Positions 13,182 through 48,481 of a DNA stretch of 64,000 nucleotides are shown piece by piece. The position numbers and the translations under genes are program-made. Each line of letters starts with the position of its first letter. The stretch's first letter is position 1. The stretch comes from Streptomyces sp. SAT1 (GTDB taxonomy: Bacteria; Actinomycetota; Actinomycetes; Streptomycetales; Streptomycetaceae): the NCBI RefSeq assembly GCF_001654495.1, contig NZ_CP015849.1:4935501-4999500 (forward strand). Direction: 5' to 3'. The notes below the pieces were generated by a model. It saw nothing but the letters and a program-made list of their open reading frames with translations, had not been told where the DNA came from and did no database searches.

Positions 13182-13510
13182 AAGTGCACTGCTTCCTGTG
13201 ACCCGAGGTGTCGTTCGGTGGACCATTCGAGTGAAAGGGACAAACAGCCGAAAAACTACGGAAATAGACGTGGGTCCCAAACAGGACGGATGTACGAATA
13301 CCCACAACTCCCATGAACACCCCAGGAGTTGCCCGCCCACAGCACCCCCGCCTGTGCGCCAGGTCACTGCCGCACGCCGGGGCGAGGTGATGCCGTGTGA
13401 CCTACGGCACGTCAGATGCGTCGGGGAGGCCGGAGACGGCCGTGGCGGAGAAAACCGGATGAGGACTCGGCTCCCCACGGGCTACGTTGATCGTGCTCGA
13501 AGGGGGAACC
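13182..13510. other. Divergent intergenic region, ketosynthase / DUF7873-like gene
   Basis: About 330 bp between divergently read genes. Its AT content is locally higher around 13230-13320. It must hold promoters for both genes, but I see no convincing box pair, repeat or RNA. Confidence 0.4.
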
Positions 13511-14242
13511 GTGACCAAGCTGAATCAGATCATCGCCGTGGAGAAGGGCGTCAAGAGCAAAGCGCTCCAGGACAGTGCGGCGGCGCACCAGAAGGTGCAG
13601 AAGCCGGTGCTGCTCGCCGGGATCTCGCGGACGTACCAGCCGAAGGACGAGGAGGGCGAGCAGCTGCCGCCCGAGTCCTCGCGGGTGCAGGTGAAGGCCG
13701 AGGAGATCCTGCGGGACATGTCGGCGTCCCTGACGCGGCTGTTCGACGTGACCGCGACGAAGGACTGGGCGAACCGCACGGCGTGCGCGGACGTCACGGT
13801 GGACGGCCGGACGATCCTCGCCGAGGTCCCGGTCGGCTACCTCCTCTTCCTGGAGAAGCAGCTCACCGAGCTGCACGCCTTCGTCAAGAAGCTCCCGGTG
13901 CTGGACGCGGCCGAGTCCTGGTCGCTGGACCCGTCGACGGACTGGTGGAAGACCGACCCGGTCCGCACGATCCGTACGAAGAAGGTGCCGCGCAACCACG
14001 TCAAGGCGGAGGCCACCGAGAAGCACCCGGCCCAGGTCGAGGTGTACTACGAGGACGTGCCGATCGGTTACTGGACCACGGTGAAGTTCTCCGGCGCCCT
14101 GCCCGCCCGCCGGGTGAACGAGCTGCTGGAGCGGGTGGAGAAGCTCCAGCAGGCGGTGAAGTTCGCCCGCGAGGAGGCCAACGGCACGGAGATCACCGAC
14201 CAGCGGACCGGGGAGGCGGTGTTCGGCTACCTGTTCGCCTGA
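13511..14242 (+). CDS. Conserved actinobacterial protein of the DUF7873 type
   Basis: The GTG at 13511 follows AGGGGGAACC and gives 243 residues starting MTKLNQIIAVEKGVKSKA. The protein is soluble, charged and without signal or membrane segments. Notable conserved-looking pieces are LLAGISRTYQPKDEEGEQLP, TRLFDVTATKDWAN and the C-terminal helix VNELLERVEKLQQAVKFARE. I recognise it as a conserved Streptomyces family, probably the one named DUF7873, without known function. A strong terminator follows at 14269-14290. Confidence 0.75.
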   Translation: MTKLNQIIAVEKGVKSKALQDSAAAHQKVQKPVLLAGISRTYQPKDEEGEQLPPESSRVQVKAEEILRDMSASLTRLFDVTATKDWANRTACADVTVDGRTILAEVPVGYLLFLEKQLTELHAFVKKLPVLDAAESWSLDPSTDWWKTDPVRTIRTKKVPRNHVKAEATEKHPAQVEVYYEDVPIGYWTTVKFSGALPARRVNELLERVEKLQQAVKFAREEANGTEITDQRTGEAVFGYLFA

Positions 14243-14268
14243 CCGGGCGACGGGCAGCCCCATGATCG

Positions 14269-14290
14269 CCCCCGCGTGCGAGCGCGGGGG
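14269..14290 (+). terminator. Intrinsic terminator after the DUF7873-like gene
   Basis: A perfect 8-bp GC stem (CCCCCGCG / CGCGGGGG) with a 6-base loop starts 26 bp after the stop codon. No T-run follows, as is common in Streptomyces. Confidence 0.75.
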
Positions 14291-14453
14291 TGCGTGAAGG
14301 ACGCGGACCGGATCGAGGACCGGTGCGCGCCATGAGCGCAAGCTGAAACTGACGTTCAGCCTGACTCGCACGGCCGCGGCGATGACCGTGACCGTGCTCA
14401 GCCTCAGACTCTCGCTCCAGCTTCAGCATTCGCCACCGATCGCCGGTGGGACC

Positions 14454-14559
14454 GAGTACGGACGACCGTCGCCGGATGCGAGTTCGAATCTCGCCTGCAC
14501 TTCTCCGCGGTGCGGTAGTTCAAAGGAAGAACACGGAGGCTTGAACCCGATCCGTACTC
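14454..14559 (+). ncRNA. Circularly permuted tRNA-like RNA
   Basis: Read in order, the plus strand gives: 14454-14462 GAGTACGGA (outer helix); 14477 T, equivalent to U48; 14478-14494 a perfect T-arm, GCGAG-TTCGAAT-CTCGC; 14495-14501 CTGCACT (3' acceptor strand); 14502-14508 a 7-base loop; 14509-14515 GGTGCGG (5' acceptor strand); TA as positions 8-9; 14518-14532 a canonical D-arm, GTTC-AAAGGAA-GAAC, with A14, A15, G18G19 and A21; and 14551-14559 TCCGTACTC, which pairs all nine bases with the first segment. The acceptor strands pair 7 of 7 (two G-U). The anticodon arm is not convincing: 14533-14555 can form a local bulged hairpin with a CTTGAAC loop, but that competes with the outer helix. Hairpins follow at 14565-14577 and 14603-14628. 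It could also be decayed tRNA pieces, but the long-range pairing argues against that. Confidence 0.6.
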
Positions 14560-14602
14560 TTCAAACGCCATCGGCGTGCGCATGGGGTGGCATCCCCGGG
14601 GG

Positions 14603-14628
14603 CCCGGGAGCTGGATACGTCTCCCGGG
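14603..14628. terminator. Strong hairpin, probable terminator
   Basis: An 8-bp perfect stem (CCCGGGAG / CTCCCGGG) with a 10-base loop. It lies 44 bp after the permuted tRNA-like RNA on the plus strand and 150 bp past the presenilin-like stop on the minus strand, so it could serve both. Confidence 0.55.
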
Positions 14629-14763
14629 TCCCGCCGCGCTTCCGGGTCCCGCCGTGCTTCCGGGACCTGTCGCGTTTCCGGGGCCTGTCGCGTTTCCGTG
14701 GGCTGTGGCGTTCCGCCCCGCCGTCCGTTCCGCCCCGCCGTCCGTTCCGGCCCGCCGTCCGTC
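14626..14763. repeat. Two adjoining short tandem-repeat blocks
   Basis: About five imperfect 18-bp units of the type GGGTCCCGCCGCGCTTCC (14626-14715) are followed by three 16-17-bp units of the type CCGCCCCGCCGTCCGTT. They fill the space between the hairpin and the presenilin-like stop codon. No coding role is apparent. Confidence 0.7.
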
Positions 14764-14777
14764 TGCCCGCCGCGCGC

Positions 14778-15842
14778 TCACACGAGGCGGGCCACCAGCG
14801 GGCCCGTGTCCTCGCCGTGCTCGCGGGCGTCACGCCGGGCCAGCCCGGGGGACGCCCCGGTCCCGACCACCCGCCCTTCGCACAGTACGACCCAACTGCC
14901 CGCCGGTAGATCCTCGTTCAGCCCGCCCGCCGGTCCCGTCGGCAGCGTCGCGGCGACCGCCGCGGCCAGCGCGGCGTCCGGTTCCGCACCGGCGGCGTTC
15001 GCCCGCCGGGCCGGGCCCGCGGCACCGGCCCGCCACTCGGCGGTGGTCCGCTCACCGCCCGCCCGCCGCGACCACACCAGGTGCTGCACCACGATCAGCG
15101 GCCCCAGCGCGGTCAGCAGCGGAAAGCCCTCCGTCAGCGCGCCCACCGCGAACAGCACGCTGATCGCACTGGTGACGACGACCCCGACGGCCCCCGCCAG
15201 CAGCGCCGCCGGGCGCCCGTACGCCTTCGCCGCGACCAGTGGGAACAGCACGAGCAGCAGCAGGTCCCCGAGACCGACCGCGACCGGATGCGCGCCGCCG
15301 GTGAGCGCGAGCAGCGGGGCGAACGGCCGCCCGCGCACCTGCGCGAAGAAGTCGCCGGTGACATCCGTCAGCGTGGTGGCGACCAGGTCGTAGCAGGTCA
15401 ACGCGGCTGCCAGCGCCGCGACATGGGCCGAGCGCATCCCGCTCTGCGCCCACAGGTTCGCCACCCCCACCACCGCCACGGCCAGCACCACATCGGTCCC
15501 GGCGCGCACCCCGGCCGACAGGTCCGCGACGGCGGCCCCCGCGGTCAGCGCGGTCGCCGCCAGCGCCAGGCACCACGCCCAGCGCCCCGAGCACAGCGGC
15601 GCCAGCGTGAACTGCAGGGCCACGCAGAACACCAGCCCGAACAGCGCAGACACCCACGCGCCCGGCAGCGCGCCGTACAGCAGCGGGGCCACGACCACCC
15701 CGACGCACAGCACGGCGACGTCCGCCGGGGCGTACACCCCGACCGGCGGCCTGGGCATCGCGACCTTGGCCAGATAGCCGCCGGCCACCGCCATCAGCAG
15801 GGCCACACAGCAGCTCAGCGCCACCAGGGCGGTTCCGCTCAC
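14778..15842 (-). CDS. Presenilin/signal-peptide-peptidase-like intramembrane aspartyl protease
   Basis: A 354-residue protein with about eight or nine membrane segments over residues 5-290. Two motifs define GxGD intramembrane proteases and both are present within membrane segments: Tyr151-Asp152 in LTCYDLVATT and Gly190-Leu-Gly-Asp193 in VAVGLGDLLLL. The third family element (PAL) is not clear; PAALL at 211 or ALGPL near 256 are candidates. The last 50 residues (SWVVLCEGRVVGTGASP...) form a small soluble domain like the DUF5678 fold. The GTG start overlaps the upstream ligase stop by 4 bp (GTGA). Third gene of the operon with the 22-residue peptide and the PaaK-like enzyme. Proteolytic activity is inference from the motifs. 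Confidence 0.72.
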   Translation of the reverse strand: MSGTALVALSCCVALLMAVAGGYLAKVAMPRPPVGVYAPADVAVLCVGVVVAPLLYGALPGAWVSALFGLVFCVALQFTLAPLCSGRWAWCLALAATALTAGAAVADLSAGVRAGTDVVLAVAVVGVANLWAQSGMRSAHVAALAAALTCYDLVATTLTDVTGDFFAQVRGRPFAPLLALTGGAHPVAVGLGDLLLLVLFPLVAAKAYGRPAALLAGAVGVVVTSAISVLFAVGALTEGFPLLTALGPLIVVQHLVWSRRAGGERTTAEWRAGAAGPARRANAAGAEPDAALAAAVAATLPTGPAGGLNEDLPAGSWVVLCEGRVVGTGASPGLARRDAREHGEDTGPLVARLV

Positions 15843-29440: not shown

Positions 29441-29462
29441 TCTTCAGGCACCTCACAAGGGG

Positions 29463-41285: not shown

Positions 41286-41456
41286 GGACCGCCCCCGCGG
41301 CCAGGGGCGAGCCGCCCCCGCCGCCGGGAACAAATGGCCGCACCCCCCGGTTTGGGGAGATGGCACCAGTCCTGGCAGACTGGTACGTCGGCTCCGGTTC
41401 ACGCCCCCCGCACCCCGCGGCGGCGACCCGGCGCCCTCCCGAACATAGGAGACACC

Positions 41457-47092: not shown

Positions 47093-48481
47093 GTGCGTGA
47101 ATACCTGCTGACGCTCTGCATCACGGCCGCGGTGACGTACCTGCTGACCGGGCCGGTGCGCAAGTTCGCGATCGTGGCGGGGGCGATGCCGGAGATCCGG
47201 GCGCGTGACGTGCACCGGGAACCCACTCCGCGGCTCGGCGGTATCGCGATGTTCTTCGGGATGTGCGCCGGACTGCTGGTCGCCGACCACCTCACCAACC
47301 TCAACGAGGTCTTCGAGAAGTCGAACGAGCCGCGCGCGCTGCTCTCCGGGGCCGCGCTGATCTGGCTGATCGGTGTCCTGGACGACAAGTTCGAGATCGA
47401 CGCCCTGATCAAGCTGGGCGGCCAGATGATCGCCGCCGGTGTGATGGTCATGCAGGGTCTGACGATCCTGTGGCTGCCGGTCCCGGGTGTCGGCACGGTC
47501 GCGCTGACCCAGTGGCAGGGCACCCTGCTGACGGTGGCGCTGGTCGTCATCACCATCAACGCGGTCAACTTCGTCGACGGCCTGGACGGTCTGGCGGCCG
47601 GCATGGTGTGCATCGCCGCCGCCGCGTTCTTCATGTACGCCTACCGGATCTGGTACTCGTACGGCATCGAGGCCGCCGCCCCGGCCACCCTGTTCGCGGC
47701 CGTGCTGATGGGCATGTGCCTGGGATTCCTGCCGCACAACATGCACCCGGCGCGGATCTTCATGGGCGACTCGGGCTCGATGCTGATCGGCCTGGTGCTG
47801 GCGGCCGGCGCGATCTCGGTGACCGGGCAGGTCGACCCGGACGTGATGAAGCTGTTCTCGGGGTCCGAGCGCAACGCGGTGCACCAGATGGTGCCGGTCT
47901 ACATCCCGCTGCTGATGCCGCTGACCATCATCGCGATCCCGGCCTCCGACTTCGTCTTCGCGGTGGTGCGCCGCACCTGGCGCGGGCAGTCGCCGTTCGC
48001 CGCGGACCGCGGCCATCTGCACCACCGGCTGCTCCAGATCGGCCACTCGCACAGCCGGGCCGTGCTGATCATGTACTTCTGGGCGGCGCTGATCGGCTTC
48101 GGCGCGCTCGGCTACTCGGTCAACTCGGCCTCCATGTGGATCGTGCTGGGCATCGTGCTGCTCAGCTTCTTCGGGCTGGTGCTCCTGCTGCTGCCGCGGT
48201 TCACGCCGCGCGCCCCGCGCTGGGCCGAGCAGTTCGTGCCGCCGCGCTACCGCCGCCGCCGGGCGGCGGTCCAGACCCCGGCCGCGGAGGCGCGCACGGA
48301 GGCGTCCGCCCCCGCCGCCGAGGCGGCCGGGGCCGGTGAGGCGCACGCGTCCTCCGGTGCGCAGGAGGCGCCCGTGCGTCCGGCGCCGGTCGGTGCCACG
48401 GCGGCCCGGGTCAACGGAGCGACCGCCGTGGGACCCCGATCGCGTGTTCTCGACGGACGCAATGCCGGAACGTCACGCTGA
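47093..48481 (+). CDS. Polyprenyl-phosphate N-acetylglucosamine-1-phosphate transferase (MraY/WecA family)
   Basis: Transfers a sugar-1-phosphate from a UDP-sugar to polyprenyl phosphate, starting glycopolymer synthesis at the membrane. GTG 47093 with GGGGAAG upstream gives 462 residues with about ten membrane segments. Catalytic motifs: GVLDDKFEIDAL (DD pair), INAVNFVDGLDGLAAG (NxxNxxDGxDGL), RIFMGDSG and the WecA-type His loop GHLHHRLLQIGHSH. The C-terminal 80 residues are a disordered Ala/Glu/Pro tail. It precedes the ATP synthase operon. Confidence 0.94.
   Translation: MREYLLTLCITAAVTYLLTGPVRKFAIVAGAMPEIRARDVHREPTPRLGGIAMFFGMCAGLLVADHLTNLNEVFEKSNEPRALLSGAALIWLIGVLDDKFEIDALIKLGGQMIAAGVMVMQGLTILWLPVPGVGTVALTQWQGTLLTVALVVITINAVNFVDGLDGLAAGMVCIAAAAFFMYAYRIWYSYGIEAAAPATLFAAVLMGMCLGFLPHNMHPARIFMGDSGSMLIGLVLAAGAISVTGQVDPDVMKLFSGSERNAVHQMVPVYIPLLMPLTIIAIPASDFVFAVVRRTWRGQSPFAADRGHLHHRLLQIGHSHSRAVLIMYFWAALIGFGALGYSVNSASMWIVLGIVLLSFFGLVLLLLPRFTPRAPRWAEQFVPPRYRRRRAAVQTPAAEARTEASAPAAEAAGAGEAHASSGAQEAPVRPAPVGATAARVNGATAVGPRSRVLDGRNAGTSR

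Follow-up and report, generated by a model that had tools for sequence, protein, structure and literature searches.

The tRNA-like element at 14454-14559 of the window, that is, of the whole 64,000-nt stretch of Streptomyces sp. SAT1 DNA that was analysed, is a real, conserved structured RNA. It forms one module of a longer RNA located directly after a gene for a DUF7873 protein, and the gene and the RNA constitute a two-part unit, the distribution of which is independent of Ro60 (TROVE). The preferred reading, to which a probability of about 0.6 is given, is that this unit makes a Y-RNA-like ribonucleoprotein with a new protein partner, in which tRNA-shaped heads would bind or decoy proteins that recognize tRNA. 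The first-pass annotation had described the element as a circularly permuted tRNA-like RNA, which is the right description, the order being held among relatives, and had placed it in the intergenic region before a presenilin operon. That location is better given by the preceding DUF7873 gene, the RNA being genetically linked to it.

The T-arm, both acceptor strands, the D-arm, the U at 14477 and the outer helix that had been reported for the module were all found by direct reading of the letters (Table 1). A normal anticodon stem had been considered not evident, but an anticodon-like stem has been found; its strands run on into the outer helix, with no 7-nt anticodon loop. The hairpin 14533-14537/14551-14555, which had been proposed as a competing structure, is able to pair when read from the sequence. 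ARAGORN made no tRNA or tmRNA call at the module, its only tRNAs in the window being at 29461 and 48213, and Rfam at gathering thresholds gave nothing there, tmRNA included. The folding energy of the unit alone was ordinary (z -1.06, with 27 of 200 shuffles equally good). The evidence for the reality of the RNA is comparative.

Table 1. Features of the DUF7873 gene and of the RNA that follows it (positions in the window).
Feature	Position	Strand	Remarks
Gene of the 243-aa DUF7873 protein, GTG start codon, TGA stop codon at 14240-14242	13511..14242	+	Pfam PF25283, 394 bits; proposed protein partner
Non-coding RNA, inferred extent, ends unmapped	14269..14631	+	Taken, with the help of alignments, to run from the hairpin nearest the stop codon through the terminal hairpin
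5' hairpin CCCCCGCG/CGCGGGGG	14269..14290	+	Read directly; inspection by eye shows a similar one in Streptomyces relatives
Short hairpin, 6 bp, 14368-14373/14392-14397	14368..14397	+	At the place of module 1 in many relatives
Conserved core block (CTCAGACTCTCGCTCCAG...)	14403..14450	+	Alignments
Outer helix, 5' strand	14454..14462	+	Pairs 9/9 with 14551-14559; 96.9% of cells paired (25 copies)
Anticodon-like stem, first strand (transcript order)	14468..14474	+	6/7 pairs with 14534-14540
T-arm GCGAG-TTCGAAT-CTCGC	14478..14494	+	100% of cells paired (25 copies)
Acceptor stem, 3' strand	14495..14501	+	7/7 with 14509-14515, two G-U; 100% of cells paired
Acceptor-closing loop TCTCCGC	14502..14508	+	No encoded CCA; TCT directly after the acceptor
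Acceptor stem, 5' strand	14509..14515	+	Pairs with 14495-14501; covariation set
D-arm	14518..14532	+	Stem 14518-14521/14529-14532; GG at 14525-14526; 100% of cells paired
Anticodon-like stem, second strand (transcript order)	14534..14540	+	Partner of 14468-14474
Outer helix, 3' strand	14551..14559	+	Partner of 14454-14462; covariation set
TTCAAACG, window form of the TTAAACG element, just 3' of the outer helix	14560..14567	+	One inserted base relative to the consensus
Terminal hairpin, loop GGATACG at 14613-14619	14600..14631	+	Present in relatives

A DNA search of 61 genomes has revealed a match in 24 of them. Covariation was analysed in 25 module copies taken from 26 loci, L026 (a 38-base match that local blast did not recover) being left out; the alignment was made with MAFFT on the sequence, unfitted to structure, and 3' ends were trimmed to bring the outer-helix columns into register. 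Among the 625 cells formed by 25 pairs in 25 copies, 98.9% were paired, and both sides had changed at 18 of the 25 pairs. The number of double-changed cells was 135, against a shuffle mean of 44.3 and with none of 500 shuffles as high, and pairing fell to 38-48% when the partners were slid by 1-3 columns. The weakest measure, further pair types, gave 42 against 38.1 expected, with 23 of 500 shuffles as high. The pairings of the acceptor and outer helices, on which the original proposal had been staked beforehand, are kept in relatives through compensatory changes in these 25 copies. Both the alignments and the descriptor scan described below found the identical permuted order in relatives, and not a linear tRNA.

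A mechanical descriptor composed of T-arm, 3' acceptor strand, 5' acceptor strand and D-arm was scanned over the 750 nt that follow DUF7873; the loci came from the best 80 of 312 viral relatives and the best 80 of at least 547 genome relatives. At least one match was present downstream of DUF7873 in all 80 genome loci and in 66 of 78 viral loci, the best 80 having been kept per set and two viral loci excluded (L119, with an in-frame stop in the match, and L142, which is cut off), while short loci such as L153, with 128 nt downstream, were kept. Controls gave matches in 0/157 mononucleotide-shuffled sequences, 2/157 reverse complements, 3/157 upstream stretches, 0/158 stretches within the gene and 3/150 stretches at 1000-1750 nt downstream. 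Two matches per locus were found in just over half of the genome loci (41 of 80) and of the viral loci (40 of 78), although a few of the second ones (for example in L098) may be due to chance.

The RNA to which the module belongs is longer, and in about half of the related loci it bears two modules, about 150 nt apart; in the window, a 6-bp hairpin stands in the place of module 1. The T-arms of the two modules are 143-184 nt apart in 80 two-module loci, which include near-identical ones such as L110/L111, L138/L152 and L155/L156. The anticodon-like stem lies outside the descriptor and thus provides an independent test, with strands re-partnered among loci as control: all five of five pairs were formed in 54/80 copies of module 2 and 42/80 copies of module 1, compared to about 14-15% after re-partnering. 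For the outer helix re-partnering discriminated weakly (module 2, 78/80 versus 72%; module 1, 57/80 versus 70%), so that this helix was rested on covariation, and for module 2 only. Of the 80 two-module loci, 68 have a TTAAAYG element in the 70 nt that follow module 2, and one has it after module 1. The terminal hairpin with a GGATAYG loop was present in 51/80 genome and 16/74 viral loci, with 5/156, 1/155 and 1/151 in the controls. A long-range central helix of the core around module 1 was not supported, the mean stem being 7.7 compared to 7.4 after re-partnering.

The linkage to DUF7873 was analysed with a covariance model of module 2 (R1) run on whole genomes, matches of at least 64 bits forming the strong class. 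Among 61 relatives, the genomes with such a match were the genomes with DUF7873 (32 in each case). A survey of 199 genomes of the same genus, in which matchless genomes beyond 20 itemised ones were counted from tallies, found DUF7873 in 93 and the RNA at E≤1e-12 in 91, all of them within the 93; the other two carry the RNA at 56 bits. Some R1 match at E≤0.001 was found in 47 of the 61 relatives, and matches below 64 bits were read as copies of module 1, TROVE-linked Y RNAs (by their coordinates) and tandem tRNA pairs, one such pair and three TROVE places having been inspected. DUF7873 is not widespread in the phylum: only 7 of 396 genomes sampled across it carry the gene, all of them belonging to the genus of the window. 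Among 14 control genomes, a DUF7873 match was obtained in Deinobacterium chartae alone, and this genome was likewise the only one with a TROVE match. A deletion in locus L275 (genome G592) appears to fuse the middle of the DUF7873 gene to the RNA core, and module 2 remains there with 78.7 bits.

DUF7873 also turned up in 73 of the 50,697 phage records. In phages of Arthrobacter, Gordonia, Rhodococcus, Pseudanabaena, Rhizobium, Klebsiella and Vibrio, and also in Nonomuraea, the gene is followed by modules. Of 13 named loci, 12 have at least one descriptor match within 800 nt, a Microcoleus phage having none, and the match of Pseudanabaena phage PA-SR01, one of the 12, is 611 nt past the stop and may be unrelated. 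In the IMG/VR contigs, 67 of 80 loci (a count that includes L119, with its stop set by hand, and L142) have an R1 match on the same strand within 1000 nt downstream, and 113 of 127 matches lie there. The 13 remaining loci include two that are cut off too soon (L142 and L153), three with descriptor matches (L106, L127 and L147), two with module-like arms seen by eye that have altered T-loops or long acceptor loops (L123 and L151), and an ambiguous one (L154). Four others (L104, L105, L126 and L144) are apparently without an adjacent RNA, L144 having a match further downstream on the opposite strand, and the last locus, L132, has its matches before the gene. Several records carried other RNA features near these loci. 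The gap after DUF7873 in the Microcoleus phage (L084:3950-4159) contains a HEARO RNA match of 129 bits, with no detectable module. A 'suppressor tRNA' (TTA) annotated in Klebsiella phage vB_KpM_FBKp24 (L272:3018-3097) shares its stretch in part with the RNA, which has probably been misread as a tRNA there. Gordonia phage Phendrix (L078:1072-1600) has a tmRNA match of 89 bits inside a tRNA array, with no tmRNA among its listed features, and Arthrobacter phage Mimi (L077:2165-2195) has a sub-threshold abiF RNA match (33 bits, cut-off 37), also in a tRNA array.

A permissive Rfam search gave a single good match, YrlA (RF02553), over 14455-14561, with 34.9 bits and an E value of 6.4e-6 against a gathering score of 69. 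Two TROVE-linked Y RNAs of relatives were also below the YrlA cut-off (39.8 and 38.0 bits), and sub-threshold YrlA matches were found after DUF7873 in 5 of 8 phage loci and likewise beside TROVE matches in relatives. The bacterial Y RNAs of the YrlA type match the unit end to end, and consequently the permuted order of the module is the YrlA order; this answers the earlier doubt about an established bacterial case of this form. Y RNAs are known as partners of Ro60. In PMC8394870, YrlA is described as having two parts, a stem built by its 5' and 3' ends and a tRNA-like domain that bears the D, T and acceptor arms; it is modified by DusA and TruB, Rsr sits on the basal stem, and the tRNA-like domain is said to bind PNPase. 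Like YrlA, the RNA after DUF7873 has a module ordered as T-arm, loop-closed acceptor and D-arm, with both ends below the anticodon-like stem and flanks that form an outer stem, and it is found in bacteria and phages. Unlike YrlA, it tracks DUF7873 rather than Ro60, is two-module in about half of the related loci and has its own conserved core, UUAAAYG element and terminal hairpin.

The AlphaFold model of DUF7873, obtained from an 86-sequence alignment, showed long helices and long strands (pLDDT 92.3, pTM 0.77). The protein is mildly acidic, with a pI of 6.47 for the window protein and a median of 6.4 among 86 sequences (range 5.1-8.7), which gives no support for RNA binding. Pfam assigns no function to DUF7873, and no family was found in PHROGs, NCBIfam or PADLOC, two proteins having been tried in PADLOC. 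Foldseek searches of the PDB and viral libraries with the model gave nothing at E≤1e-3; one viral row, the uncharacterised A0A7M1RW91 of uncultured phage cr118_1, had a probability of 1.00, a TM of 0.43 and an E value of 0.026. The best E value in a PDB sequence search was 0.06. TolC, the best VIA match (Z 7.3, rmsd 13.8 over 154 residues), was within the described noise of the tool and was rejected.

The DUF7873 protein would most likely bind the RNA, itself presumably transcribed, through the core and the flanking conserved elements, in the role that Ro60 has for Y RNAs, and the particle would present one or two tRNA-shaped heads. Judging by YrlA, these heads may attract proteins that recognize tRNA, with two conceivable outcomes: an RNA-processing enzyme could be tethered, as a Y RNA tethers PNPase, or the heads could compete with tRNA for a tRNA-cutting nuclease. 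For YrlA, PMC7790460 suggests that the tRNA-like domain could be a competitive inhibitor of an anticodon nuclease. DUF7873 and its RNA would then, rather probably, be an undescribed one- or two-headed particle, related to that of the Y RNAs but free of Ro60, which would capture or redirect tRNA-recognising enzymes in Streptomyces, its relatives and phages of hosts from three bacterial phyla. No paper naming DUF7873 or describing this RNA was found in a search that covered mostly literature outside subscription journals and the primary Y-RNA papers. Phage Y RNAs are already in print: PMC12282133 mentions Y RNAs in mycobacteriophages and a suspected one beside an Rsr-like protein in a Listeria phage, and according to PMC7765460 a Vibrio jumbo phage has a Ro60-related protein. 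If the preferred reading is true, the tRNA-like head is a transferable module, usable with a different protein family than Ro60, and a testable function would be supplied for DUF7873, a family without an assigned one.

Among the alternatives, it is possible, at a much lower level of confidence, that the RNA, stabilised by DUF7873, is a one- or two-headed, anticodon-less tRNA mimic which sequesters nucleases that cut tRNA or defence proteins that bind it. The missing anticodon loop and the competitive inhibition proposed for YrlA agree with such a decoy, as does the finding of a conventional tRNA gene within 3 kb in 41 of 80 viral loci (three or more in 21), a frequency uncompared with the rest of the same contigs. 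However, just 8 of the 80 bacterial loci lie within 4 kb of a tRNA, and the two proteins tried in PADLOC had no match. The recurrence in phages, with about half of the viral loci near tRNA genes, makes the nuclease-inhibition proposal directly testable.

A cis-acting 3' untranslated element of the DUF7873 mRNA, autoregulating or protecting the message, is doubtful. It would account for the 80 genome loci in which the RNA immediately follows the gene and shares its strand, and a consensus scan for sigma-70-type promoters over 13300-14800 gave no promoter-like site, the sole terminator-like site being on the other strand. Nevertheless, separable modules, closed acceptors and a conserved core are more than a terminator needs, R1 matches of L132 lie upstream of the DUF7873 gene, and in the record of phage vB_KpM_FBKp24 a promoter annotation of unstated origin stands in the interval from DUF7873 to the RNA (L272:2802-2833). 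The words promoter, tRNA and transcript were not found in PMC9700779, a paper on this phage.

That the RNA is an ordinary Ro60-bound Y RNA with the Ro60 gene elsewhere, DUF7873 being a bystander, is improbable and has been largely refuted. The module plan is shared with TROVE-linked Y RNAs, and TROVE is present in 48 of 91 genomes with the RNA; yet it is absent from the other 43, occurs at a similar rate in genomes without the RNA (46 of 108, Fisher p 0.16), has no match in the one-contig genome of the window, and was found in only one of 8 named phage records, being absent in 7. Weaker R1 matches lie about 1.2 kb from TROVE matches, and when the TROVE surroundings were scanned on both strands with an acceptor loop of up to 40 nt, descriptor modules were found in 14 of 20 loci. 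Three motifs met repeatedly at the TROVE-linked Y RNAs (GGTGCGMAGG, TACTTC and a 3' GAUCUCGG-like element), which may represent the Ro60 site, were derived here after those sequences had been viewed. At least two of the three were present in 15 of 20 TROVE loci and in none of 157 DUF7873 loci, 11 of which had one motif, in a test that was more lenient for the TROVE loci (best of four stretches) and in which the window itself was judged by eye. This set replaced GYGGUUAY, which had been considered as the Ro60 motif and matched 1 of 19 TROVE-linked modules. As the RNA has a Y-RNA-like build and lacks the TROVE and motif features, it was set apart as a variant and not classified as a Y RNA.

Some observations concern the TROVE loci themselves. 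Five of the 14 module-bearing ones (L034, L041, L044, L045 and L046), and also L262 and L263, have two YrlA-type modules about 160-250 nt apart, and those two-module loci that were scored fall under the Rfam YrlA cut-off, so that Rfam would miss them. An ARAGORN tRNA-Met at L263:2078-2150 covers a TROVE-linked YrlA-type module and is likely a misreading.

A permuted or two-piece tRNA gene whose product would mature through RNase P and 3' processing is very improbable. The T-arm, D-arm, acceptor and U48 are canonical, and ACCA follows the acceptor in 25 of 80 module-1 copies, but the anticodon loop and any ARAGORN call are missing, no CCA is encoded in the window, and 68 of 80 module-2 copies have TCTN or TCCN after the acceptor. 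CCA can be added after transcription, and its absence from the gene alone is not decisive. Processing into a two-piece tRNA, as first proposed, is unsupported, with acceptor loops of 4 to 67 nt among viral relatives and no encoded CCA. In permuted two-piece tmRNA, the 3' tRNA part comes ahead of the 5' part, and a spacer separates the acceptor ends; the RNA described here differs from it in the canonical D-arm and in receiving no tmRNA call from ARAGORN or Rfam. Permuted tRNA genes of algae and archaea have their halves in reversed order, whereas here there is no anticodon loop and the break lies in the long outer helix. Such genes are mentioned in PMC10085705.

A relic of two tandem ordinary tRNA genes, the inner halves of which would only seem permuted, has next to no likelihood: a tandem tRNA-Asn pair of the window genome does score 48.6 bits with R1, but the module has no flanking tRNA, carries an anticodon-like stem and belongs to a class (R1 of at least 64 bits) confined to DUF7873 genomes among the 61 relatives, and the relic is refuted by the covarying outer helix. 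This pair (L261:416-567, at 2.19 Mb, with a 4-nt spacer) mimics the module and also reaches 36.9 bits with YrlA, tandem tRNA pairs being thus a false-positive class for any YrlA search.

Two other RNA features were recorded on the forward strand of the window. A tRNA-Gly (acc) called by ARAGORN at 48213-48291 is unlisted by Rfam at threshold and is possibly false, and the L31 ribosomal protein leader of Actinobacteria was found by Rfam at 41388-41435 with 50.3 bits.
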